Of a stretch of 34,174 nucleotides of DNA, positions 1,730 to 26,035 are shown one piece after another. Made by a program: the position numbers and the translations under genes. The DNA is taken from the IMG/VR virus record IMGVR_UViG_3300035181_000879, positions 1 to 34,174 of that record; one strand, 5' to 3'. Positions within the stretch are counted from its first letter, which is position 1. Every line of letters begins with the position of its first letter. The notes beneath the pieces were generated by a model. It was not told the origin of the DNA. It searched no databases and saw only the letters and a program-made list of their open reading frames with translations. This DNA comes from a virus.

Positions 1730-3502
1730 ATGTCGGGAATAAAAATTAGCGCATTACCAGTAGCCACGGTTGCCCAGTTAACCGATGTGTTCCCAGCAGT
1801 ACAAATACCGGGGCCCGTAACAAGGCAAGTGTCACTTCAGCAAGTAGCAACTCTTTTTAGCTCAAGTTCTGGTGTGACCAGTGTATCTGGAACAACAGAT
1901 CGCATTACATCAACTGGCGGTACGACTCCTGTCATTAATATTGCAAGCACCTACGTTGGTCAATCATCCATTACCACATTAGGCACCATTGCAACCGGTG
2001 TATGGAATGCAACCCCTATTGATTTGTCATTGTATGTCACAGGAAATCTACCTGTTGCCAATTTAAATAATGGCACGGGAGCTAGCTCGTCTACCTTCTG
2101 GCGGGGAGATGGTACATGGGCAGCACCTAGCGGAAGTGGTACGGTCAATTCAGGACTGATTAACCAAGTGGCTATTTATGCAGCAACTGGGACGGCTGTA
2201 TCAGGGCTTGCTACGGCAAACTCTGGTGTTCTGGTGACATCTGCTGGCGGCGTGCCTAGTATTAGTTCTACATTGCCAACAGGGCTGGCCTTAAGTACGC
2301 CCGCATCAATCACATTAACGAATGCCACAGGTTTACCCGTAGGCGGAATATCTGCAACCGGTACCCCCAGTGCATCGAATTACTTAAGAGGCGATGGCAC
2401 ATGGGCAACCAGTGCAACGGTAGTGCCTGCAGCCCTTACACAAGCCAATGATACCAATGTTACTTTAACGTTAGGCGGCACACCTGCCACAGCATTGTTG
2501 CAAGCTAGTAGTATTACCGCAGGCTGGACGGGGACGTTAGCAGGATCTAGGGGTGGGCTTGGTGCTTCCATTACCGCAAGCAATGGCGGAATTTATTATT
2601 CCACTGCTACTACGGGCGCATTATTAAACGGAACAGCTACGGCTAGACAGATGCTTCAGTCAGGCGCATCAACAACGCCTGCGTGGTCAACCACAACATG
2701 GCCGGCAACAACAACCGTTAACAGATTATTATTTAGTTCTGCTGCAAGCGTGATTGGTGAGGTAACGGTTGTTAACTCGGCAGGATTAACGACAACTGCG
2801 GGTGGCGTACCGACATGGGTGGCAGCAACGGGTACCGGTGCTCCGGTGTTTGCTACCTCGCCTACCATTACAACGCCTATTATTGCAACTATAAGAGATA
2901 CGGCTGGTCTAAGCATGCTAACTACAAGTGCCACAGCATCCGCCGTCAATAATGTGCAACTTAGTAATTCTGCAACAACACTGCCAGTTAATATAACGGC
3001 CGTTGGAACCGATGCAAATATAAATATGAATTTAATTTCCAAGGGTACCGGTGGAGTTGGAATTAAGGGCATTGCAGATGCGGGAAATGCTAGCACAGGT
3101 TATGTGGGCGAGTTTGTTAGTTCGGTGGTATTGATTGGAAGTGCGGTAGCTTTAACTACAGCGGTTACTGCAAACGTCACTAGTATTTCATTAACAGCTG
3201 GAGACTGGGATGTTTGGGGGGAGGTTTATTATACAGGTGCATCGTCCACCACCTACGCAGGACAATCTGCTTCAATAAATACAGTTTCAGCAACATTTCC
3301 AAGCACCCCGTCTGCATCGACATCAACCACAATTTCTGGATTTTCTGGCTCTTTTGTAACAACTGGAAGTCAGTTTATTACCGCGAATCCTTGCAGAATA
3401 AATGTATCGAGCACAACAACAGTTTACTTGCTTGCAAATGGAGCGTTTTCTGTTAGCACATGCTCTGCTTATGGGGTCATTAGGGCTAGACGTAAAAGAT
3501 AA
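1730..3502 (+). CDS. Large tail fibre / receptor-binding protein
   Basis: A 590-residue protein of low-complexity Thr, Ser, Gly and Ala beta-structure. The N-terminus ([20 protein letters not shown], residues 6-25) is a common attachment segment of phage fibres. Fibre-shaft signatures include [16 protein letters not shown] (82-97) and two copies of a W/L-RGDGTWA motif (125-131 and 220-226). Residues about 460-590 form a distinct C-terminal domain ([16 protein letters not shown], then [24 protein letters not shown]), like the jelly-roll heads of other fibres. It probably determines adsorption specificity. ATG 1730 follows an AAGGA site. Several long minus-strand open frames here are shadows of its biased codon use. 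Confidence 0.8.
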
Positions 3503-3521
3503 AAAAATAAAAGGAAGTAAC

Positions 3522-3986
3522 ATGACAGAAATGACAATAGTAGACGTAGTAAATATTTTATACCCCAACCAATTTACATTAGGGAATGTATCCTTTGGTG
3601 CAGAAACGCCAGATAATATTATTATTACCTCATGGAATGTACCTGATGTTGAGAAGCCCAGCGTTGAATCATTGGTAGCACAAATACCAGCGTTGCAATC
3701 AGATTTTAATTTAACATGCTTTAACCTGCAGGGAACGCCGCAATTAACAGTCTATATTGATAGTGTTGCGCAAAGTAGGCGTTATGACAATGCAGCTGTC
3801 TGTGCAAGCTATGTTAGTTCTACCGTGCCGTCATGGGCACTTGAGGCACGTACATTTATTGGTTGGCGTGATGCGCTATATATTTATGTTGCAGCCCAAT
3901 ATCAATTAATGGAAGCAGGTACTCGAACTGTGCCAACGTTTGCAGAGTTTCAGACTGAATTACCAGTGATTACATGGCCTAGCTAA
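3522..3986 (+). CDS. Fibre-associated protein, tail fibre assembly-like (DUF4376-like)
   Basis: A 154-residue protein. ATG 3522 is preferred over an upstream start because AAGGAAG lies 5 bases before it and 19 bp separate it from the fibre stop codon. Residues about 82-150 show the pattern SVAQSRRYDNAAVCASYV, then ALEARTFIGWRDALYIYV, then AGTRTVPTFAEFQTELP. This matches the C-terminal domain of many proteins encoded just after tail fibres. Such genes act in fibre assembly or as the last fibre component. It is the last gene of the rightward module and overlaps the converging WGR-like gene by 8 bp, with no terminator visible between them. Confidence 0.7.
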   Translation: MTEMTIVDVVNILYPNQFTLGNVSFGAETPDNIIITSWNVPDVEKPSVESLVAQIPALQSDFNLTCFNLQGTPQLTVYIDSVAQSRRYDNAAVCASYVSSTVPSWALEARTFIGWRDALYIYVAAQYQLMEAGTRTVPTFAEFQTELPVITWPS

Positions 3987-4576: not shown

Positions 4577-5131
4577 TCAAGATTCCAGAATCTTGTATAT
4601 TGTTGCGCGTGATACATTTAATTTAAATGCAATTTGTCTAATACTAATGTTTTTATTTTTTAATTCTTTAGCCTCAAGAGAAAGTTTATTAGTAATTTTG
4701 GATGGTCTTCCGCAGTGTTTTCCTGAGCGTTTAGCGGCATCCAAACCTTCGCGCTGTCTAGCTCTAATCATGGTTCGCTCAAATTCTGCAAATGCACCCA
4801 TTATTTGTAAAGTTAGTGTATCCATTGGGTTTTTAGTGGCATTAAATGTAAGATTTTCTTTTATAAACTTTACTGACACACCTTTTTCAATCAATGTATT
4901 GATAATGCCTTGCAAGTCCAATAGATTTCTAGCTAATCTATCAATGCTATGAACAACCAGCATATCCCCTTCTCTTACATATTCCATACAAGCAACAAGA
5001 CTTTCACGGTCTTTAGTAGATCCACTCATAATGTCGACAAACTCCTTGTCTAATTTTATTCCAAATAACTGCCTATCTATACTTTGACCTTGAGATGAAA
5101 CCCTTATATATCCTACAATTTGACCACTCAT
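4577..5131 (-). CDS. Small serine recombinase (resolvase/invertase family)
   Basis: A 184-residue protein, the usual size of Tn3-type resolvases and Hin/Gin invertases. ATG 5131 is chosen because it overlaps the stop of the upstream membrane-protein gene (ATGA). The catalytic domain begins GYIRVSSQGQSIDRQ, with the nucleophile serine in the VSS motif. It continues with GDMLVVHSIDRLARN, which holds the conserved active-site arginines, and GAFAEFERTMIRARQREGL at the start of the long E helix. The C-terminus (about 135-184: GRPSKI, ISIRQIAFKLNVSRATIYKIL) is a Hin-type helix-turn-helix. It lacks the large C-terminal region of serine integrases, so it more likely resolves multimers or inverts DNA than integrates. 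It lies next to the tail-fibre module, as invertases often do. Confidence 0.92.
   Translation of the reverse strand: MSGQIVGYIRVSSQGQSIDRQLFGIKLDKEFVDIMSGSTKDRESLVACMEYVREGDMLVVHSIDRLARNLLDLQGIINTLIEKGVSVKFIKENLTFNATKNPMDTLTLQIMGAFAEFERTMIRARQREGLDAAKRSGKHCGRPSKITNKLSLEAKELKNKNISIRQIAFKLNVSRATIYKILES
4578..4595. repeat. Palindrome with 2-bp centre at the end of the recombinase gene
   Basis: CAAGATTC and GAATCTTG form perfect 8-bp arms around a 2-bp centre (CA on the plus strand). It overlaps the last codons of the recombinase and the ribosome site of the next gene. An inverted repeat with a 2-bp core is the geometry of serine-recombinase crossover sites. It could equally be a small RNA hairpin that tunes translation of the downstream gene. 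Confidence 0.5.
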
Positions 5132-5370
5132 GCTATATGCAAGTAATGAAGGATGGCAGGCAACCAAATAGATCCTAAAATAATACTAAACATTAACATA
5201 AATTTATTATCTAAATGTTTCAATCCAATATCTATTTTATTATCTAATCGCGATATCCCATTCTCTAATGAATCAAATCTTTTATCATTAATCTTAAATA
5301 ATTCTGAATGCAATCTTAATTGTATTTCATGCTCAATATAGCTTTCATCTGTTCTATTCAATATAGTCAT
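5128..5370 (-). CDS. Small coiled-coil membrane protein, copy A (paralogue of 12032-12184)
   Basis: An 80-residue protein with a strong AGGAGGG site before ATG 5370. Residues 11-27 read YIEHEIQLRLHSELFKI. Residues about 28-56 look like a coiled coil with LDN repeats (SRLDNKIDIGLKHLDNKF). Residues 57-76 are one membrane segment (FSIILGSIWLPAILHYL). Its ends match the 50-residue protein at 12032-12184. The topology resembles small phage holin, antiholin or hemolysin-XhlA-like proteins, but its place in the leftward module, far from the endolysin, leaves the role open. Its stop overlaps the recombinase start. Confidence 0.75.
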   Translation of the reverse strand: MTILNRTDESYIEHEIQLRLHSELFKINDKRFDSLENGISRLDNKIDIGLKHLDNKFMLMFSIILGSIWLPAILHYLHIA

Positions 5371-9584: not shown

Positions 9585-10067
9585 TTAAAATTGTATGTCA
9601 TCATCAGGGAACGGGGGAACGTCTGTTGCAGGTGACCCAGTAGACACAACAATGTAGTCATCAATCTTGTTTTTATCAGAATAACGACTTCCAGCTGGCT
9701 TGCCTTTAAGCTTATCTGCAGGGATTTCGTTACCTTGCTCAATAGCTACCTTTACACGCACACGATTACCGATAACTACATCAGAACAAAGCTTGCCCGC
9801 TTCATAATCTTTTGTAAGTCCTGCGGCATTTGCAAAACGGATAACCTTCCACATCATCGCCTTAGTAAAGACTAGAAAATCTCTAACATCATGACTTTTG
9901 CCCGTAGCATCAAATACCTGTATGGTCATATCCATCATAGGATTACCACTATTAGCTGACACCTTATCTTCTGATGATAGAATAACGGCATCATATTCGC
10001 CCTCTTTAAGCAGTTGAAACCGCTCTTGGTTTGCTTGTTGTTCTGTGTACACTTCATAATGAAACAT
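9585..10067 (-). CDS. DUF669 family, probable single-stranded DNA binding protein
   Basis: A 160-residue protein with AAAGGAG before ATG 10067. The pattern LKEGEYDAVILSSEDKVSAN, GNPMMDMTIQVFD, VRDFLVF and AGKLCSDVVIGNRVRVKVAI is that of the phage DUF669 family, an OB-fold-like group encoded beside recombination ATPases. The C-terminus (151-160) is PPFPDDDIQF, which imitates the acidic DDDIPF tail by which bacterial SSB recruits repair and replication proteins. Together with the neighbouring Sak4-like ATPase it forms a recombination pair. Confidence 0.8.
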   Translation of the reverse strand: MFHYEVYTEQQANQERFQLLKEGEYDAVILSSEDKVSANSGNPMMDMTIQVFDATGKSHDVRDFLVFTKAMMWKVIRFANAAGLTKDYEAGKLCSDVVIGNRVRVKVAIEQGNEIPADKLKGKPAGSRYSDKNKIDDYIVVSTGSPATDVPPFPDDDIQF

Positions 10068-10275
10068 CTATTTCTCCTTTAATGTGACTCCATCTTTTAT
10101 TTCGAACAATTCTATCTATGGTAGAAATTGATACCCCATAAATTACGGATAACTTAGTACAATTCATTTCTTTTGAATATAATTTTCTTATAGAAATAAT
10201 ATCCTTATCATTTAACTTTGATATTCCATTTTTGATTCCTGGCGATCCTCCATAACCGTTTAACCTTCTATTTGT
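10054..10275 (-). pseudogene. Remnant of an HNH-type homing endonuclease C-terminal HTH domain
   Basis: In the frame overlapping the end of the ATPase gene and the start of the DUF669 gene, the minus strand reads NGYGGSPGIKNGISKLNDKD, then ISIRKLYSKEMNCTKLSVIY, then GVSISTIDRIVRNKRWSHI. This matches the G-x-KNG-x-SKLT-x-x-x-V-x-x-IR linker and helix-turn-helix found at the C-terminus of phage HNH homing endonucleases. No ATG, GTG or TTG precedes the domain in frame and no HNH motif is present, so it appears to be the tail left by a deleted homing gene. An internal start at M48 would give only half the HTH. Confidence 0.6.
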
Positions 10276-11102
10276 TTTTTCAAATGGGAGATAATCTTTA
10301 AAATAGTATCTTCTGGAAGCTCATCAAAACTCATCGAATTAGACTTAGCTAGCCATTTATCAATGGTAGCCTGTGGTACATTTAATAAATCTACGATTCT
10401 TTTAAGTTCTGTTATTTGTTCATCGGTTGCAATTTTCTCTGGGACAGCTTCTTGTTCAAGAATATCTCTTCCATATCTTTTTGCTATTTCATCATAAGAA
10501 AAAGGAAATGTTTCTCCGTCTGGAAATGATGCTATCCTAGATTTTTTAACTAACCCCACCCTTTCTTTTCCACGCTTTTGTACTTCAAATACCAAATCAA
10601 AAAGAAAATCTAACTTTTTGTATCCATCATACGTTTTTCCAAGAACAGATAAATTAGAACCATATTCATTTTTTGAATGACACGTTAAAATTACATTCAT
10701 CGGTAGCCTTAAAAGCAGATTTAATAATTGCTTCATTTTTTTATTGCTATGCGCATAATGACGACCAAACTCAGAACCAACTTCTTTTTCAGACTTATCA
10801 AGTAAATCATTATAAAGTGTAGTCAAAGGGTCTATCACTACTGTTTTATATTCATGTTTTTCTGTTAATAACGATTTTACTTCTTGAATCAATTCATCAA
10901 AATCTGTAGTTTGAAATACAGCACCACCATTATCATTAATGGTATCTACATATTGATCGTTAACACTGCCTTTTTCTGTATCAATTAAATACACTTTTGG
11001 GAAACTTATTGCCGCAGTAGTTTTTCCAGCACCAGCATCACCATAAAACAACGCTTTTAATCTTTTTTCTGTTTTCTCAGGTTTAACGCCTCGTAATGCC
11101 AT
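10260..11102 (-). CDS. Phage RecA-like ATPase (AAA_24, Sak4-type recombinase)
   Basis: A 280-residue protein. ATG 11102 is chosen because AGAGAGG lies 7 bases upstream; the longer frame adds 27 residues without homology. Walker A is GDAGAGKTT (21-29), and Walker B is KTVVIDPLTT with D91. The layout is that of phage AAA_24 ATPases of the Sak4 single-strand annealing group: VYLIDTEKG after Walker A, NVILTCHSKNEY as sensor region, GYKKLDFLFDLVFEV in the C-terminal core. The last 60 residues are a helical extension. These proteins pair ssDNA in phage recombination with an SSB-like partner, here the DUF669 gene downstream. Confidence 0.85.
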   Translation of the reverse strand: MALRGVKPEKTEKRLKALFYGDAGAGKTTAAISFPKVYLIDTEKGSVNDQYVDTINDNGGAVFQTTDFDELIQEVKSLLTEKHEYKTVVIDPLTTLYNDLLDKSEKEVGSEFGRHYAHSNKKMKQLLNLLLRLPMNVILTCHSKNEYGSNLSVLGKTYDGYKKLDFLFDLVFEVQKRGKERVGLVKKSRIASFPDGETFPFSYDEIAKRYGRDILEQEAVPEKIATDEQITELKRIVDLLNVPQATIDKWLAKSNSMSFDELPEDTILKIISHLKKQIEG

Positions 11103-11192
11103 CTCAATTACCTCTCTTCTTAAATAACCATAAAGTCTTGCTTCTCTTGAAGCTGATACGTTCTTTAGCTTTAATACAGTCACGCATAACCA

Positions 11193-11432
11193 TTATTTGT
11201 CATCCTTTTCTAATTGGGTAATATGTCCGATTGCTGCAAAACGGGCTTCTTGTTCTGTGTCAAATCCATTACAATCTGACTCTGCTTTGAATTTTGAAAC
11301 ATGATCGAAATCGAAATTATGATTTTCATCATATATATTGTACGAGTACCATTTATCAGATGGATAATCATCGTCTGAATTCTCAAACACAATAAATTTA
11401 TGTGAACTAAAATATTCTATTAAATCCAACAT
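11193..11432 (-). CDS. Hypothetical small acidic protein
   Basis: A 79-residue protein. ATG 11432 overlaps the stop of the upstream gene by one base (TGATG), indicating coupling. It is acidic and aromatic in the N-terminal half (ENSDDDYPSDKWYSYNIYDE). The C-terminus FDTEQEARFAAIGHITQLEK follows the F-x-T-E-x-EAR-x-AAI-x-HI pattern seen in many small phage proteins of unknown function. Confidence 0.65.
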   Translation of the reverse strand: MLDLIEYFSSHKFIVFENSDDDYPSDKWYSYNIYDENHNFDFDHVSKFKAESDCNGFDTEQEARFAAIGHITQLEKDDK

Positions 11433-11959
11433 CAATATTTACTCCAGAATATTTCGCCTGAATCTTTGTCAGCGTATGAATGAAAACCATGCTCAGCCTG
11501 TAGATTGCATAATAGGTCATGACATGCCTCATCTAATACGTGTTGTAGGGGCTTTTTATAATATGCAATAATATTCTTGCGTGTAATGTCTGCAAACGTG
11601 TCTCGCGTCTCTTGGGTGTCTTCACGCATAAGTGACAACAAAGCGCATGTATAGTCATTATCTATAGCAATATCAGTGCCATGAACACATTCACCTGTTT
11701 CACGGTCTGTAGATTCCATATAGAGCCTAACTAGCTCCCCTTGCTCATCTTCTGGGATATTTAAGAATAGTAATTGATAGGCGTCACCATCATACTTACC
11801 GTATTGGTATGCTAATTCTTCTGCATAATCTGATAAATTTCTGGCGTTTGTCACAACGGTCAATCCTTTGAAAGTACCCTTTAATTCAAAAGGGTCATCA
11901 GTCCATGATGATTTTTCTTGATTGTTAATATATGTATACGGTACACTTTGTGCGTGCAT
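11432..11959 (-). CDS. Hypothetical phage early protein
   Basis: A 175-residue protein. ATG 11959 is chosen because GAGGGAT lies 5 bases upstream. It is acidic, with no signal peptide or membrane segment and no motif I recognise. Residues 33-65 (FKGLTVVTNARNLSDYAEEL then AYQYGKYDGDAYQ) look mixed alpha/beta. The C-terminal third is helical (VLDEACHDLLCNLQAEHGFH) with spaced Cys and His. It lies between the small membrane protein and the recombination genes of the leftward operon. Confidence 0.6.
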   Translation of the reverse strand: MHAQSVPYTYINNQEKSSWTDDPFELKGTFKGLTVVTNARNLSDYAEELAYQYGKYDGDAYQLLFLNIPEDEQGELVRLYMESTDRETGECVHGTDIAIDNDYTCALLSLMREDTQETRDTFADITRKNIIAYYKKPLQHVLDEACHDLLCNLQAEHGFHSYADKDSGEIFWSKY

Positions 11960-12031
11960 AGTAGATCCCTCAAGATTAATTATGTTCAGGGATGAAAGCC
12001 TGTAAACTTTCATCCCACTGCTTTATATCTT

Positions 12032-12184
12032 CTAAACCAATTTCAAATAATGTAAAACTACTGGAAATATCCAGCCCCCTACAACCAAACTAATAAGCCA
12101 ATTTAACTTGGACTCCATAATTTTAAATTTCACATCATGAACCCTTAACTTTACCTCATGCTCAATATATTGGTCGTTAGTCAT
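12032..12184 (-). CDS. Small membrane protein, copy B (paralogue of 5128-5370)
   Basis: A 50-residue gene. ATG 12184 has TAGG 9 bases upstream. YIEHEVKLRVHDVKFKI (6-22) and the membrane segment LISLVVGGWIFPVVLHYL (30-47) match YIEHEIQLRLHSELFKI and IILGSIWLPAILHYL of the 80-residue protein at 5128-5370, which has an extra coiled coil between them. The encoding DNA still shares the stretch ATGCTCAATATA. It is a duplicated membrane protein of the leftward module. Function unknown. Confidence 0.75.
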   Translation of the reverse strand: MTNDQYIEHEVKLRVHDVKFKIMESKLNWLISLVVGGWIFPVVLHYLKLV

Positions 12185-12210: not shown

Positions 12211-12393
12211 TTATACCGTGGTATCTTTAGGTGTCAACCTTTTTTCTATTATTTTTCTATGTTTGTCTACACATTTAAGAATAATTTCAATCATGGATAC
12301 CTCTAATCGCAACGATTCGGTTCTCAAAAATATCCACATGTCTTTAGGCATTCTTACACTAAACGCTTTTAATTCTTGGTTGTTCTTTTTCAT
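12211..12393 (-). CDS. Ribbon-helix-helix (Arc/MetJ-type) repressor
   Basis: A 60-residue protein with AAGGG 9 bases before ATG 12393. Residues 8-50 show the RHH layout: beta strand LKAFSVRMP (8-16), helix KDMWIFLRTESLRLEV, a turn, then helix MIEIILKCVDKHRKIIEKRL. It is the first gene of the leftward operon. Palindromic ATACC-GGTAT type sites lie in its promoter region (12423-12458), at its own 3' end (12213-12224) and before the 16325 gene (16621-16636), so it likely represses itself and the second unit (inference). Confidence 0.8.
   Translation of the reverse strand: MKKNNQELKAFSVRMPKDMWIFLRTESLRLEVSMIEIILKCVDKHRKIIEKRLTPKDTTV
12213..12224. promoter_or_regulatory. Operator-like palindrome ATACC-GT-GGTAT
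   Basis: ATACCGTGGTAT overlaps the last codons and stop of the RHH gene, just upstream of the 50-residue membrane gene. Its half-sites are identical to those at 16621-16636. It may modulate the rest of the leftward operon. Confidence 0.5.
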
Positions 12394-12422
12394 TTTATTA
12401 GCCCTTGTTATTCAACATATAA

Positions 12423-12473
12423 ACTATGGTATCATTATTTATATTGCAATACCATAGTATTTTATAGATTATA
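12423..12473 (-). promoter_or_regulatory. Leftward operon promoter region with paired operator half-sites
   Basis: ACTATGGTAT (12423-12432) and ATACCATAGT (12449-12458) are perfect 10-bp inverted arms separated by 16 bp, 30 to 65 bp upstream of the RHH start codon. A consensus -10 hexamer, TATAAT, lies on the minus strand at 12473-12468, so the arms would sit at and just after the transcription start. No good -35 is visible (CTCTAT at the expected place). The arrangement fits autoregulation by the RHH protein. Confidence 0.55.
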
Positions 12474-12547
12474 TGAAAAGTGCTAGACGTATAGAGAGTA
12501 ATTAAGATTTGACATATTGATCTTATTTATTTTTAGCGTATATTGAT

Positions 12548-12598
12548 TGGCTTGATGAATGTAATGAGCATTCTACCAAGCCATGGGCGTAGCCCTTT
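12548..12598 (+). other. Structured leader with nested hairpins
   Basis: TGGCTTG (12548-12554) pairs with CAAGCCA (12577-12583), enclosing GAATG/CATTC (12557-12573). It is followed directly by GGGC-GTA-GCCC and TTT (12585-12598), a terminator-like stem. This lies in the 5' region of the rightward replication unit, after a TTGACA-like hexamer at 12509. It could be an attenuator or antiterminator leader. Confidence 0.4.
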
Positions 12599-12663
12599 GG
12601 CAATTTCAACCTACTAGAATAGGCGAAGTTTTTGATAACAACGTTTAAAAGGAACGTCATTAC

Positions 12664-12900
12664 ATGCCAGAATATTACTTATCACAGCCCCAAAAATCAA
12701 CCTTTAAATCATTATTATTTTTTATTTCACATACTGGAAGGATTCTTATTGTGCGTAAATTATTTATTATGTTGGCGATAATGCAGGACAGAAAACAAAC
12801 GTTGTCTTCGATAAAAGCTAGGGTTCGAGTATTTGAAAATAATAGAGTATATTTGGATGACTTGGTTTTACGAATTAGAGCAGAGCGAATCATGACTTAA
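12664..12900 (+). CDS. Hypothetical protein, first gene of the replication unit
   Basis: Up to 78 residues from ATG 12664, which has AAAAGGA 10 bases upstream. A GTG at 12751 with GGAAGGA before it would give a 50-residue form. It has a hydrophobic stretch (SLLFFISHTGRILIVRKLFI) and a basic C-terminal half (SIKARVRVFENNRVYLDDLV, LRIRAERIM). No family recognised. It might be a regulatory or leader peptide ahead of the replication genes. Confidence 0.4.
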   Translation: MPEYYLSQPQKSTFKSLLFFISHTGRILIVRKLFIMLAIMQDRKQTLSSIKARVRVFENNRVYLDDLVLRIRAERIMT

Positions 12901-12910
12901 ATTAGGTTTA

Positions 12911-12953
12911 TGGGCATCTAGCCCAAAATCCCAACTTGTTCAAGCAAGTGGGG
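12911..12953 (+). other. Two hairpins upstream of the replication initiator gene
   Basis: TGGGC-ATCTA-GCCCA (12911-12925) and CCCAACTTG-TTCAAG-CAAGTGGGG (12930-12953, one mismatch) lie back to back in the 159-bp interval before the initiator gene. They are followed by sequence without a T-run, so a leader or origin-structure role is more likely than termination. Nothing else is recognised in this interval. Confidence 0.4.
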
Positions 12954-13059
12954 TATCCATACAACGTGTTCTTCCACAGAACTGGACTACGAGCATCAAC
13001 GGTTCCTAGCAGGATGATACCGATAACAATCACAATCACTTTCACAAGGAAATTATAAC

Positions 13060-13860
13060 ATGAACTTAAATATAAATGAACAGTTAATGAATGACACTAA
13101 AGATGCTAATTTATGTATCTTTATGGCAAATCTAGCGACTTGGATAAGAACCAACGCCAAGAAAGACGACCCCAAGAACCGAAACTTCCATGAAGGCAGA
13201 TTCTGGTCATACAACTCCATACAAGAATTTGTACGATACTTCGGATTCTGGTCAACTAAGAATATCCGCACGATTATAGCTAATTGCATCAAGCTTGATT
13301 TGATTGCTACCAACTCATTTAACAAGAAAAAATATGACAATACTTTGTGGTATACCCTTACGGATAAAGGGCTAGAGTACTATCCATGCTTACGTGACTT
13401 TTTATCGAACATGCTTGCCGATTCCGGCAAGGGTCTTGCCGATTCCGGCAATGCTATACCAGAAGATCTTAACCATAAAACAAAACCCTATAGTCCCTTG
13501 TCGCCTTCGGCAACGGTGAGTGATCTTGAAAAACAATATTTTGAAAAATGGAACGAGTTAGCCAAGAAAGAAGGTCTTAGTCAAATAAGACTCAAGAACA
13601 AAGAACATATTAAAAAATGCAAACGACAGCTAACTAGGTTTCTTTCTTATTGGCCAGAACTAAACAGCGACCCTACTTGCAAAATAAATGATGACTATGA
13701 AATGCATCCAGATTATTTGATAGAAATCCTAGAAGCAGGAATTGCGGCTAAATCATTTATCCTCTCACCTGATAGAGACCCATACAGAACATTTGAAATT
13801 ATATTGCGACAAAATAACTTTGAAAAAATGCTACAAGAAATAAATCAGAGACTGAGATGA
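13060..13860 (+). CDS. Replication initiator-like protein (winged helix)
   Basis: A 266-residue protein with AAGGAA before ATG 13060. The N-terminal 110 residues (FMANLATWIRTNAKKDDPKN, GRFWSYNSIQEFVRYFGFW, NIRTIIANCIKLDLIATNSF, TLWYTLTDKGLEYY) are a winged-helix layout like those of phage replication proteins that precede a DnaB-type helicase. The central part holds a duplicated heptad LADSGKG/LADSGNA, encoded by tandem palindromes that may be the origin. The C-terminal third is helical and charged and could load the helicase. The stop overlaps the helicase start (ATGA). Comparable to lambda O or P22 gp18 in position, but not by sequence. Confidence 0.65.
   Translation: MNLNINEQLMNDTKDANLCIFMANLATWIRTNAKKDDPKNRNFHEGRFWSYNSIQEFVRYFGFWSTKNIRTIIANCIKLDLIATNSFNKKKYDNTLWYTLTDKGLEYYPCLRDFLSNMLADSGKGLADSGNAIPEDLNHKTKPYSPLSPSATVSDLEKQYFEKWNELAKKEGLSQIRLKNKEHIKKCKRQLTRFLSYWPELNSDPTCKINDDYEMHPDYLIEILEAGIAAKSFILSPDRDPYRTFEIILRQNNFEKMLQEINQRLR
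13414..13451. repeat. Tandem palindromes inside the initiator gene, candidate origin
   Basis: CTTGCCG-ATTC-CGGCAAG (13414-13431) is a perfect 7-bp-arm palindrome. The same 17 bases recur at 13435-13451, exactly 21 bp on. The repeat is in frame and gives the heptapeptide repeat in the protein. Iterons within the initiator coding sequence are the arrangement of lambda ori within gene O. Confidence 0.6.
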
Positions 13861-15236
13861 GTAAATTTATAAACATAAAGCTAGAAAAAATGGTGCTGGG
13901 TAATCTATGCGCTTTATCAGATCCAAATGACCCAATACTGATGGACGCTATGGATAGACTCCATACTACCTGCTTTACAGGCCACGATAGACAAATGTTA
14001 TTTGAAATAATGGTTAAAAATCACATCAATGGAAAAGAAATAGCCGACTATGCTATCGCTATGGACATCTATGAAAATAGCCACGAATTGATGGATGTCC
14101 TTCTCGATATTATTCCTGATAAAAAAGAACCAAATTCCCTGTTAAAATGGATATGCGATTTAAACGCTCTACGAATCGATAGAGGGCACTTAAATCTTAT
14201 GGATGACCTACGTACAAGTTTTGATTTAGAAATCGATAGGGACGCTAGAGAAGCCCTTATATCAACATTTACAGATAAGGTTGTCACTTTAAGAGATAAT
14301 GCTGGGTCTAATAGCAGTTATATGCGTTCATCTTCTGAATGTATTGATGATTTAATTAACGAATTGAAGAACGGTAACATACGCGTTAAAACTGGTCTAC
14401 GGGATTTAGATTCTTTTTTGCAAGGCGGTCTTGATTCTGGCTCGCTTGTTGTCATTGGTGGTGCGCCCTCTTCCGGTAAAACACATATGGCATTAAAAAT
14501 GTTATTGGAGTGTCATAAATTACAATTAGGAAAAGAGGCGCTTGTTTTTTCATTAGAAGGTAAAGCCTCCAATGTAACTCAAAGACTGATATCTCATCAT
14601 CAAGGTGTTTTGTTTAAAAAAATAGATTTTTCTCAACAGTTATTGATGATGGAAGATTATAGGGAAATAAATATTTCTATTAGCGATAAACAAAACTTAA
14701 CTGTTGACCAAATTTACAGCACATGCAAGCGCGCTTATTTACGTAATAAAATTTCTGTGGTGCTCGTTGATTACCTTGATAGAGTTAAAAAACCAAATGG
14801 AGACATGCGGCAAGATGAAAAGCTTGCAGAAATATCTAATCAACTGGCTAATATGGCGATTGAATTTAATTGCATTGTTATTTTAACTACTCAGTTAAAC
14901 AAAGAGGCGATAAAGCGCCCAGACCATAGGCCAACACCGGTCGATTCAAAGAACTCTAGCGGACAATCAGAGGCTGCTAGTTACTGGTTTGGTATTAAAC
15001 GAATTTCGCAGTGGGATAATGGAACCCGCTATCCTGATTCAAATTTAGTTGAATTAATTGTGGGCAAGAACAGAAATGACGAACTGGAAGGAATTGTATA
15101 TTTTGAAACGGAAAATTCATTGTATTTAGATATTGATCAAAACAGAGCACTACAGCTTGTTTTGCAGTCCGATTTAAATAGAAAAGCTGAGATAAAAAGA
15201 TTTGATAATTTATTTAACAAAGGAAAAAAGCAATGA
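13857..15236 (+). CDS. DnaB-type replicative DNA helicase
   Basis: A 459-residue protein whose ATG overlaps the initiator stop by 4 bases. The N-terminal 150 residues resemble the helical DnaB N-domain (LEKMVLGNLCALSDPNDP and on). The RecA-like core starts at TGLRDLDSFLQGGLDSGSLV. Walker A is GGAPSSGKT (201-209), FSLEG (231-235) is the H1a-like motif with the catalytic glutamate, and Walker B is VVLVDYLDRV (D305). ILTTQLNKEA and the KNRNDELEG segment complete the DnaB pattern. It unwinds the replication fork of the phage and is probably loaded by the upstream protein. Confidence 0.93.
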   Translation: MSKFINIKLEKMVLGNLCALSDPNDPILMDAMDRLHTTCFTGHDRQMLFEIMVKNHINGKEIADYAIAMDIYENSHELMDVLLDIIPDKKEPNSLLKWICDLNALRIDRGHLNLMDDLRTSFDLEIDRDAREALISTFTDKVVTLRDNAGSNSSYMRSSSECIDDLINELKNGNIRVKTGLRDLDSFLQGGLDSGSLVVIGGAPSSGKTHMALKMLLECHKLQLGKEALVFSLEGKASNVTQRLISHHQGVLFKKIDFSQQLLMMEDYREINISISDKQNLTVDQIYSTCKRAYLRNKISVVLVDYLDRVKKPNGDMRQDEKLAEISNQLANMAIEFNCIVILTTQLNKEAIKRPDHRPTPVDSKNSSGQSEAASYWFGIKRISQWDNGTRYPDSNLVELIVGKNRNDELEGIVYFETENSLYLDIDQNRALQLVLQSDLNRKAEIKRFDNLFNKGKKQ

Positions 15237-15526
15237 GTATTTTTTGTACTAAAGAAGAGTTAATGCAGGAAATGTTTTGTGACAGAATGGTTGAAGTAAT
15301 TTTAAGTTATCCATTGAAATGGATGCAAATGACCCCGACCGCAGAAGATGGCATTTTTTTTATCGAAGGAATCAGAAAGGATGATTTTAATATTCAGTTA
15401 ATTACTTTTGAGCCAGACTTAGAAGGTCATATGGATTTGTATAGAGAGTTTAAACGCCATTACTTATCTTTGAATAAAATTAAATTTGGCGATCTTTGTC
15501 ATTTTGAAATTAGTCATTTAAGGTAG
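15233..15526 (+). CDS. Hypothetical protein
   Basis: A 97-residue protein overlapping the helicase stop (ATGA), with AAGG-rich sequence before it. Mixed alpha/beta with a central hydrophobic strand (DGIFFIEGIRKDDFNIQLI). No motif recognised. Its coupling to the helicase suggests a replication accessory role (inference). Confidence 0.65.
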   Translation: MSIFCTKEELMQEMFCDRMVEVILSYPLKWMQMTPTAEDGIFFIEGIRKDDFNIQLITFEPDLEGHMDLYREFKRHYLSLNKIKFGDLCHFEISHLR

Positions 15527-15530
15527 TTTT

Positions 15531-15731
15531 ATGAATCCCGGCCTATACGAATCACGAAAAAAATATCTATTTGGGTTAATTAAAAGGATATCAAACATAG
15601 CGGGTGGAGATGATGAAGCTTGGCTGATAGAATATTTTAACGAAGTATTGAGTAAGTATTCTTGTGAACGCATAGAAATCGCAATCGCTAAATACAAAAA
15701 ATGGATTGAACAATTAGAGAATGTGCAATGA
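15531..15731 (+). CDS. Hypothetical small helical protein
   Basis: A 66-residue protein with an AAGG site 8 bases before ATG 15531. Predicted all-helical (SRKKYLFGLIKRISNIAGGD, AWLIEYFNEVLSKYSCERI, AIAKYKKWIEQLENV). It overlaps the next start by 4 bases. No family recognised. Confidence 0.6.
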   Translation: MNPGLYESRKKYLFGLIKRISNIAGGDDEAWLIEYFNEVLSKYSCERIEIAIAKYKKWIEQLENVQ

Positions 15732-15931
15732 AGAAACGTAGCAAAGGACTGTATACCAATCTACATGACCATCAAGCTATGATGGACTTTTTACAGCAGC
15801 TATATGGGGTCAAGGATGACAACAGCGAAGAAGGCGGCTCCTCCATTGGAGCGAGACGAACAAAAAGCACTGGTTCGATGGCTAAACATGCATGCGAAAC
15901 TAAAGAATCTTTATTGCAAGATTCACAATGA
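15728..15931 (+). CDS. Small protein overlapping the nuclease gene
   Basis: A 67-residue frame whose ATG overlaps the preceding stop (ATGA). The first 36 residues (HDHQAMMDFLQQLYGVKDDN) look like a plausible small helical protein. The remainder overlaps the nuclease gene by 116 bp in another frame and has low-complexity composition, so its C-terminus may simply be read-through to the next available stop. Confidence 0.45.
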   Translation: MKKRSKGLYTNLHDHQAMMDFLQQLYGVKDDNSEEGGSSIGARRTKSTGSMAKHACETKESLLQDSQ

Positions 15932-16208
15932 AGGCAAGCGAACGCCTTTACAAACGCATTTCTTGAAGCTTGAAGGTTTGAGGCCACATGTTAGCGACAT
16001 ATTTATTTACTGCCCTACCAACACTTACCACGGTCTATGGTTGGAAGTGAAACGCAATAAAAAATACACTCAGTCTGAACGCTCGACAACACACTGGATT
16101 GGACAGGAAACTTTTCAAGAAACCGTAAAAAAAGTTGGCTATGAAGCTAAGTTCTGTTATGGTTTTATGGACGGCATCCATATTATTGAAAGTTATCTCC
16201 TGACTTGA
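15816..16208 (+). CDS. VRR-NUC domain nuclease
   Basis: A 130-residue protein. ATG 15816 is preferred over ATG 15804 because GGGG lies 6 bases before it. The PD-(D/E)XK-type VRR-NUC pattern is visible: RDEQKALVRWLN (13-24) with the first acidic and Gln residues, IHNEGKRT, then GLRPHVSDIFIY with the catalytic Asp, GLWLEVKRN with the E-x-K pair, and a QETFQETVKKVGYEAKFCYG segment. Stand-alone VRR-NUC proteins in phages are thought to cut branched or Holliday-type DNA. Here it ends the replication operon. Confidence 0.85.
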   Translation: MTTAKKAAPPLERDEQKALVRWLNMHAKLKNLYCKIHNEGKRTPLQTHFLKLEGLRPHVSDIFIYCPTNTYHGLWLEVKRNKKYTQSERSTTHWIGQETFQETVKKVGYEAKFCYGFMDGIHIIESYLLT

Positions 16209-16239
16209 TGTAATATCCGTTGACTTCCTTATTTTATGA

Positions 16240-16257
16240 CCCCCTTGAAAGAGGGGG
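16240..16257. terminator. GC-rich hairpin after the nuclease gene
   Basis: CCCCCT (16240-16245) pairs with AGGGGG (16252-16257) over a 6-base loop, 31 bp after the nuclease stop codon and between converging units. It is followed by CTTATAT on the plus strand, so the T-run is poor. A bidirectional terminator is the likeliest role. Confidence 0.6.
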
Positions 16258-16258
16258 C

Positions 16259-16324
16259 TTATATATCGTATCCACGGTCTTTGTTCCACCAATAAATAAT
16301 AATTAATATTAATATAATGCCCAT
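16259..16324 (-). CDS. Possible 21-residue membrane peptide
   Basis: ATG 16324 follows the stop codon of the 87-residue gene directly, with GGAG 6 bases before it. The product MGIILILIIIYWWNKDRGYD plus Ile is one short hydrophobic segment with a charged tail. The ribosome site and tight linkage support it; size alone makes it uncertain. Confidence 0.4.
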   Translation of the reverse strand: MGIILILIIIYWWNKDRGYDI

Positions 16325-16588
16325 TTATTTCTCCATCCAGTCGTTAAACATTTCATATAAAGTGTCTTTTGAATAACCGATACCTTCATAGAGATTGCCT
16401 GATTCAAAACCGGATAATTCCCAATAATCGTATAGCGCATCTGTATCATGAAACATTTGATAACGGTTGTCAGGTTCCCACCCGTAGTTATCACTCATTG
16501 CATATGATGCGTAACTAGCATCAGGGTATTTTGTTTGTATTTTAAATTTTTTGGTGTCTACGATATATGCTGTGTGATTTGGGTTCAT
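16325..16588 (-). CDS. Hypothetical acidic Tyr-rich protein under a palindromic operator
   Basis: An 87-residue acidic protein with many aromatic residues (YPDASYASYAMSDNYGWEPD, FHDTDALYDYWELSGFESGN). The C-terminus DTLYEMFNDWMEK is helical. No family recognised; the composition resembles DNA-mimic or anti-restriction proteins, but this is only a resemblance. It has its own promoter, with a perfect 16-bp palindrome between -35 and -10. Confidence 0.6.
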   Translation of the reverse strand: MNPNHTAYIVDTKKFKIQTKYPDASYASYAMSDNYGWEPDNRYQMFHDTDALYDYWELSGFESGNLYEGIGYSKDTLYEMFNDWMEK

Positions 16589-16619
16589 TTTATTTGCTCG
16601 ACTTGGTTAATATGCATGT

Positions 16620-16647
16620 ATAATACCATGGTATTAAGGTATGTAAA
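16620..16647 (-). promoter_or_regulatory. Promoter with embedded 16-bp operator palindrome
   Basis: On the minus strand TTTACA (16647-16642), a 16-bp spacer and TATTAT (16625-16620) form a sigma-70 type promoter for the 16325-16588 gene. The perfect palindrome TAATACCATGGTATTA (16621-16636) covers the spacer and the -10. Its ATACC/GGTAT half-sites match those near the RHH gene, so the RHH protein is the likely repressor. The divergent endolysin promoter lies about 45 bp away. Confidence 0.7.
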
Positions 16648-21225: not shown

Positions 21226-21471
21226 ATGTTGTTATCTGATACAATGGTAGAATTACATGCAGGTCATTCAATGTGTCGTGCTGCATGGACATTAGAGGAT
21301 GGTTATCTGATGCTAATGCCGGGCATGAAGCATGTTTGGAAAATTGTATTGAATCCAGCACCCAATGCAGGAAATTACATATTTTCCGTAGAAGACTTAG
21401 AAGCTTCAGACTGGCAAGTGTTCGAGTTTCCCAGTGCGCCCATTGAAGCAGTATTAGCAGACGCTGCGTAG
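21226..21471 (+). CDS. Second Tad2-like (DUF2829) protein
   Basis: An 81-residue protein with AGGAG before ATG 21226. The pattern MVELHAGHSMCRAAW (7-21), GYLMLMPGMKHVWKI and FSVEDLEASDWQVFE (53-67) fits the DUF2829/Tad2 layout: helix with A-G-x-x-x-x-R-x-x-W, a Y-L strand, then S-x-x-DL-x-A-x-DW-x-V. It is a single-domain form, unlike the tandem protein at 8791-9171, and lies in the structural region just before a terminator. In other phages DUF2829 proteins sequester Thoeris or related nucleotide signals. Activity here is inference. Confidence 0.6.
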   Translation: MLLSDTMVELHAGHSMCRAAWTLEDGYLMLMPGMKHVWKIVLNPAPNAGNYIFSVEDLEASDWQVFEFPSAPIEAVLADAA

Positions 21472-24823: not shown

Positions 24824-26035
24824 ATGGCTAACCAATTTATTACAACCGACCTCGTGTCGAACACCGCTTTAGCAATGTTTGCTAATAACGCGCCTTTCGT
24901 AATGACAGCAAGCCGTATTTATCAAGATGACTTCGTATCATCTGGTTATAAAATAGGTGACACATTACAAGTTAGACGACAAAACCATTTCATCGTTGGT
25001 GATGGTAGCGTTGCAACACCTCAGTCAATCATTGAAACTGTAGAAACAATCGTTATTGCGCATCAATACCACGCATTGATTGCCTACACTATTCAAGATT
25101 TATCATTACGTATTGAAGACTTCTCTCGCTTGTTTATTGCTCCTGCTATTCAAGAAGTAATTACCCAGATGGAAAAAGACATTGCTTCATCAGCTGAGCA
25201 ATCTCTGAACTTCTTCACAGGTACTGCAGGCGTTGCGATTAACTCGTTTACAACAGTTGATACAGCAGGTGCAAAATTGCTTGAGCAAGGTGTTAATATT
25301 GCATCTGATGCTTATATGGCAATGACCGTACGTGATGGTTCAAGCTTGAAAGGTGCATTGTTAAATAACTTCACACCTGTATTCAACGAAGACATCGTAC
25401 GTTCTTCTGCAATCGGTCACTTGTCATACTTTGACATTTTCCAATCTCAGAATATTAAACGCCACCAAGCCGGTGCCGGACCTACTTTATATTCATCAGA
25501 TACATTGCTTGTTAATGGTGCCGTGTCTTCTGGTGGTACGATTGTAATGGATGGCGCAACAGTCAGCATTACTAACTACTTCCTAGTTGGCGATGTTATT
25601 TCAATTGCAGGCGTACAATCTGTTAACCCAGTGGGACGTGCATCAACTGGTCAAGATATGCAATGGGTTGTTACAGCCAATGCTAGTTCTGATTCAAGTG
25701 GTAATATCACGGTATTGGTAGCACCTACCATTATCTCTGATACACAAAACCCTAACCGTAACGTAAGTAACTCAATCCCTGATAACTCTCCTGTTACCAT
25801 GGTTGGCACACATAACGTAAACGTGGCATACCCATCACGTGGTTTGGATATTGTTTGTCCTCCTCTTTACAAGTTGCAAGTACCATATGCATCTGTAGCT
25901 GTAGATCCTGAAACAGGCTTGTCACTTGCGGTAACGCAAACCGGTGACATTCTAGGTTATCAGAACTATATGCGTATTGACCTGCTGTGCGGCTTCTCTT
26001 GGCATCCACAGTATGCAGTTCGCGTACTTTCATAA
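24824..26035 (+). CDS. Major capsid (coat) protein, P22 gp5 family
   Basis: A 403-residue protein; P22 gp5 is 430. The start MANQFITTDLVSNTALAMFA and the segments YKIGDTLQVRRQNHF, SLRIEDFSRLFIAPAIQEVI and MEKDIASSAEQSLNFFTGTA match P22 coat. A beta-rich inserted region at about 220-340 (GAVSSGGTIVMDGATVSI, GDVISIAGVQSVNPVGR) corresponds to the I-domain location. The C-terminus (PYASVAVDPETGLSLAVTQT, MRIDLLCGF) is typical. It has an HK97 fold by family and forms the icosahedral shell. Confidence 0.93.
   Translation: MANQFITTDLVSNTALAMFANNAPFVMTASRIYQDDFVSSGYKIGDTLQVRRQNHFIVGDGSVATPQSIIETVETIVIAHQYHALIAYTIQDLSLRIEDFSRLFIAPAIQEVITQMEKDIASSAEQSLNFFTGTAGVAINSFTTVDTAGAKLLEQGVNIASDAYMAMTVRDGSSLKGALLNNFTPVFNEDIVRSSAIGHLSYFDIFQSQNIKRHQAGAGPTLYSSDTLLVNGAVSSGGTIVMDGATVSITNYFLVGDVISIAGVQSVNPVGRASTGQDMQWVVTANASSDSSGNITVLVAPTIISDTQNPNRNVSNSIPDNSPVTMVGTHNVNVAYPSRGLDIVCPPLYKLQVPYASVAVDPETGLSLAVTQTGDILGYQNYMRIDLLCGFSWHPQYAVRVLS

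Follow-up and report, generated by a model that had tools for sequence, protein, structure and literature searches.

The 34,174-base virus record IMGVR_UViG_3300035181_000879 (the window in what follows, taken over its whole length) encodes a 60-residue ribbon-helix-helix (RHH) protein (12211-12393, minus strand) that is probably an autoregulated Arc/CopG-like repressor of a small early regulon, whose promoters would fire early and then be shut. Its predicted operator, ATACCNNGGTAT, occurs as an exact core at only two places in the window, 12213 and 16623, each within a strong sigma-70 promoter. The first copy, ATACCGTGGTAT (12213-12224), lies in a 12/12 match to the sigma-70 consensus, TTGACA-16-TATAAT (12237-12210, minus strand), which overlaps the last codons and the stop of the RHH open reading frame (ORF) itself, while the second forms the centre of a perfect 16-bp palindrome, TAATACCATGGTATTA (16621-16636), in a 10/12 promoter, TTTACA-16-TATTAT (16620-16647, minus strand), ahead of a gene for an 87-residue protein. 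The two share the register TTKACA-N7-ATACCNNGGTAT-NAT, in which the -35 box is followed by seven bases, ATACC, two free bases and a GGTAT that enters the -10 box. A first-pass annotation of this DNA had reported both palindromes together with separated arms at 12423 and 12449 before the RHH gene, and all three elements are present. The arms, however, are better read as two near-palindromic 12-mers spaced 28 bp start to start, a weaker site at 12421-12432 (8/10) and ATACCATAGTAT at 12449-12460 (9/10), and the 12/12 promoter around the 12213 motif had been overlooked.

Whether the motif occurs at chance frequency, a doubt raised by the same annotation, has a different answer for exact and for relaxed sites. 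The two exact cores compare with a mean of 0.025 in dinucleotide shuffles of the window, only one of 1000 of which reaches two, and in none of 1000 do two cores fall within promoters matching at 10/12 or better. Sites with up to two mismatches, in contrast, are at chance level (12 found, 15 expected), so only exact sites and those supported by relatives are counted here; the upstream pair by itself is not unusual (185 of 1000 shuffles). The annotation had proposed a weight matrix drawn from the window's own sites. A matrix built instead from 14 sites of relatives only and then applied to the window ranks the site at 12212 first, 16622 second, 12448 third and 12420 fifth. The top two scores are rare, with means of 0.002 and 0.010 per shuffled window, whereas the thresholds of ranks three to five are reached 0.25 to 0.36 times per shuffled window, and the upstream pair therefore relies on its place and on its conservation. 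The fourth-ranked site, GATACAATGGTAGA (21238-21251), near the start of an ORF at 21226-21471, and the sixth, 25703-25716, inside an ORF, have no support from relatives and were not counted.

All records compared here are possibly fragments of uncultured viruses. Protein searches returned one close relative of the window, L007 (also listed as L001), whose RHH protein is 85% identical and which retains all four sites and their register: the 12/12 operator-promoter at the 3' end of the RHH gene, the identical 12-mer at the second upstream site, the 28-bp spacing of the upstream pair although some intervening bases differ, and TTGACA-16-TATAAT with ATACCAAGGTAT in the same place ahead of a homologue of the 87-residue protein. 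That the arrangement is kept at every site agrees with the claim of the first-pass annotation that the leftward operon and the 16.6-kb unit would be coordinated by the RHH protein through an operator common to both.

A search of viral contigs with DNA alone, using the pattern TTKACAN7ATACCNNGGTATNAT, gave 12 stretches, eight of which (L004, L007, L008, L009, L011, L012, L013 and L014; seven distinct proteins, the RHH proteins of L008 and L012 being the same and L012 thus not counted as a separate member) fall at the 3' end of a gene for an RHH homologue of 56-60 residues. The other four (L005, L006, L010 and L015) lie outside RHH genes of this family, a number near the three stretches found in viral contigs with a mirrored control pattern, none of which was in a homologous RHH gene. 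A slightly stricter pattern run over genome contigs gave eight stretches, again with none in a homologous RHH gene. Rows L001, L028-L030, L032, L033, L037-L039, L041, L052 and L053 duplicate records already counted. Searches by protein only, with alignments of subsets of the family, added five members; since the alignment seeds were mostly finds of the DNA pattern, only these five new rows are a fair test. Four of them have a promoter at the 3' end of the gene and two have an operator of at least 9/10: L031, with an exact operator within the last codons, and L040, where an exact site precedes the gene and a 9/10 site comes immediately after the stop. A third protein scan added no members. Twelve of the 13 distinct members have the 3'-end promoter, and the operator is exact in nine and at least 8/10 in 11. 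The site lies just beyond the stop codon in L004 and L040, so it is location and not the peptide that is conserved. The window, L007, L004 and L040 also have sites ahead of the RHH gene. Identical codons among same-residue pairs are more frequent at the gene end (178/188) than in the body (399/708) of nine genes, although this is not an independent test because five of the nine were picked by the DNA pattern. Nine weak matches, none with a 3'-end operator, came from a profile search that covered 369 genomes of one class, and a phage collection held nothing matching the RHH protein or the 9.0-17.5 kb DNA of the window. One bacterial genome (L050:1471-1653) carries another RHH-like gene with a 12/12 promoter, TTGACA-17-TATAAT, that starts at the stop codon and has no ATACC motif, and the 3'-end promoter design may thus extend beyond the RHH family of the window.

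The 60-residue protein is likely to belong to the RHH superfamily, although no E-value obtained is proof of this. A profile of the family matches the RHH chains 9kkd (E 0.0016) and Arc 1b28 (E 0.012), and RHH_4 is matched weakly by three of eight members (best E 0.0067). The AlphaFold model (predicted local distance difference test score, pLDDT, 84) has two helices, 17-30 and 34-52, at the positions expected for this fold, a β-strand followed by two helices, while the two-stranded sheet of the dimer cannot form in a monomer model. Its Foldseek matches include Arc, CdbA, CopASO and CopG with probabilities up to 0.99, although none has an E-value of 0.001 or less; for the top PDB matches, Arc, CdbA and CopASO among them, probabilities exceed 0.9 but E-values are 0.15 or higher. 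In a post hoc comparison, one strand residue, placed by the profile opposite an arginine of Arc, is arginine in the 11 members whose site scores 8/10 or better and lysine in L035 and L036, which have a poor site or none. In Arc, the arginine at that position contacts the DNA operator.

The minus-strand unit that the 3'-end promoter would drive begins with the gene for a 50-residue protein with a hydrophobic C-terminal segment (12032-12184, no Pfam or PHROG family; its aligned segment is 58% identical in L007) and also encodes a 193-residue protein (11432-12013; 96% identical in L007 and 42% over 159 residues in L036), a Sak4-like recombination ATPase (10260-11183; phrog_124, E 1e-25; PF13479, E 1e-22) and a single-strand-binding-like protein (9585-10067; phrog_378, E 6e-9). 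A Sak4-like gene lies downstream of the RHH gene on the same strand in 12 of 13 loci searched, with weak matches (26%) in L008 and L012, and the only miss is L011, whose record ends soon after the RHH gene. From this synteny the repressor heads a recombination operon and the 3'-end promoter is directed into it. On the other side, a divergent promoter-like sequence that is conserved in L007, TTGATC-16-TATATT (12517-12544, plus strand, 9/12), faces the replication genes (replication protein at 13060, DnaB-like helicase at 13857); neither the promoter listing nor the matrix scan of the window places an operator there. A second, different small RHH-like gene follows the first in L004, L011, L013, L034, L035 and L040, with none seen in the window. 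At L004:7636-7869, L008:5839-6075, L013:3492-3725, L031:1513-1809 and L034:3380-3634, the RHH genes are followed by small proteins that combine a coiled-coil-like part with a hydrophobic C-terminus, some with weak family matches (phrog_17872 in L004, L008 and L013; CCDC90-like in L013), and a second relative of the 50-residue protein (27% identical) lies far downstream in L007 (L007:11570-11791).

We propose that RHH dimers on the half-sites ATACC and GGTAT would sit over the spacer and the -10 box, blocking RNA polymerase at the two strong promoters, the one in the 3' end of the repressor gene and the one ahead of the 87-residue gene. At entry, with repressor absent, both would fire together; repressor made from its own weaker start would then build up and close them, and the two weaker sites ahead of its gene would provide a looser autorepression. 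With exact sites on the targets and weaker ones at its own gene, the repressor would keep the targets tightly closed and its own gene only loosely so. A precedent is Reg of plasmid p576, an autoregulated RHH protein that shuts the strong promoters of other units through the same operator, controls its own promoter less strictly than its targets and allows transient expression at repressor-free entry (PMC8708921, from the part available). The feature shared with Reg, one operator at the regulator's own gene and at other promoters, is present here in the four sites of the window and is kept in L007. Reg acts, however, in Bacillus plasmids through dual-motif operators described as lying ahead of the -35 box or immediately past the start site (PMC8708921), whereas the palindromes of the window reach into the -10 box, and one of the two operator-promoters is inside the 3' end of the repressor gene.

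Other small repressors offer partial parallels. Arc, from the immI region of phage P22, is likewise a small phage RHH repressor, similar to the window protein by profile and fold, and is autogenously regulated according to the title of a reference cited in PMC2629481; it regulates ant, which belongs to a moron in the late operon of temperate phages, as far as the available text of that paper describes it, whereas the repressor of the window heads a recombination operon and an integrase was not detected. SvtR and AvtR of archaeal viruses are RHH repressors that bind their own promoters and several dispersed sites, but they do so at archaeal TATA/BRE promoters with other operator sequences, and no promoter embedded in the repressor gene is described in the accessible part of the source (PMC5569661). 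In anti-CRISPR operons small Aca repressors shut strong early promoters, and a regulatory sequence in common identifies genes as early or anti-defence, as is proposed here, although Aca8 is a predicted winged helix-turn-helix protein and not RHH-like (PMC11065993, in the sections seen). In a literature search whose coverage excluded most subscription journals, no case was found of an RHH repressor whose gene holds an operator-promoter in its 3' end.

The unit at 16.6 kb consists of one ORF, 16325-16588 (minus strand), and not of the full span 16259-16588 given by the first-pass annotation. Its 87-residue product is 70% identical in L007 and has an AlphaFold pLDDT of 76; it has no Pfam or PHROG family, and a viral fold search with the model gave no confident match. 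Since shared early regulatory sequences mark anti-defence genes in archaeal viruses, at least in the available part of PMC11065993, the gene is a candidate early or anti-defence gene by analogy. A third homologue, in L042 (3900-4170), is preceded at the corresponding position by a strong promoter, TTGACA-17-CATAAT, with a palindrome, CCAAG-A-CTTGG, abutting the -10 box, and is possibly the same gene under a different repressor.

Several observations weigh against a repressor of the kind proposed. As a single query the window protein matches no Pfam or PHROGs family, and Pfam makes no RHH call. A sigma-70 promoter for the RHH gene over the upstream pair is absent from the promoter listing of the window. 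Within the family, the site is degenerate in L034 (8/10) and L035 (7/10), and L036 is the sole member of the 13 with no operator site. There is no ATACC site before the 87-residue homologue of L042, and the records of the other relatives show no exact site away from the RHH gene, which limits the 16.6-kb target to the window and L007.

A different phage or host regulator might bind ATACCNNGGTAT, the RHH gene merely carrying one of its promoters. The link between protein and operator is drawn from sequence, a number of small ORFs in the window match no family, and the tandem second RHH-like gene noted above in L004, L011, L013, L034, L035 and L040 could bind there. We nevertheless consider this unlikely: the DNA pattern predicts RHH genes across contigs in eight of 12 stretches, the window and three relatives (L007, L004 and L040) also have sites ahead of the RHH gene, and a search for HTH_3, a helix-turn-helix family, gave no candidate above the cut-off. 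That last result bears out the statement of the first-pass annotation that no other repressor is nearby only in part, as HTH_3 is its sole basis and the small ORFs without a family remain. It is less probable again, and indeed very improbable, that the RHH protein is the antitoxin and autoregulator of a toxin-antitoxin-like module with the small membrane protein, the operon context being incidental. RHH antitoxins are common, and the window, L004, L007, L008, L012, L013, L014, L031 and L034 encode a small protein of coiled-coil or hydrophobic character after their RHH gene or genes. No one family covers these proteins, however, the 50-residue protein of the window belongs to no known toxin family by Pfam or PHROG, in L036 the RHH gene is followed directly by the operon, and a copy of the operator is also present ahead of a gene 4 kb distant. 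A second strong promoter between antitoxin and toxin would also be unusual for a co-transcribed layout.

The first-pass annotation had also entertained a maintenance switch, in which the RHH protein of a temperate or plasmid-like phage would hold the early genes off in a carrier state. The RHH gene does sit between divergent recombination and replication operons, a position that resembles a lambda-type immunity region. Yet the tyrosine integrase family PF00589 was found in none of 12 records and no CI-type HTH_3 repressor (PF01381) passed the cut-off in any of ten, fragments as these may be; the rightward promoter has no operator, and none of the eight pattern stretches in genome contigs lies in an RHH gene of the window's kind. 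Strong promoters that would open at entry and close later suit a phage for which these searches gave neither, so that maintenance is the less likely role and early shut-off the more likely one; a switch of this type seems quite improbable, if marginally less so than a toxin-antitoxin-like module.

Elsewhere the window carries genes for a P22-type portal (phrog_156), a terminase and a major head protein, besides the DnaB-like helicase, Sak4-like ATPase and single-strand-binding-like protein. A DNA invertase gene (4577-5167, minus strand; phrog_125, E 3e-58) lies near a tail-fibre-like gene (phrog_11393) in a region that also lists ORFs at 1730-3502 and 3402-3986 (both plus strand). Inverted repeats at 3399-3419 and 4600-4620 (21 nt, 86%) and at 1263-1280 and 2970-2987 (18 nt, 89%) might form, with the invertase, parts of a tail-fibre switch.

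An early-acting RHH repressor of the type proposed here would represent a compact design in which a tight early promoter is placed behind a weakly expressed repressor. With the operator-promoter in the stop-proximal codons, the C-terminal peptide of the repressor (LTxxDTxV/S) may be set by DNA control and not by protein function, and we suggest, tentatively, that the 28-bp module alone might suffice to read the regulon, marking small genes, here the one for the 87-residue protein, as early or anti-defence. The DNA signature TTKACA-N7-ATACCNNGGTAT-NAT locates a repressor family that single-protein Pfam and PHROGs searches miss for the window, and it nominates the 87-residue protein as an early gene that may be of interest with respect to host defences.

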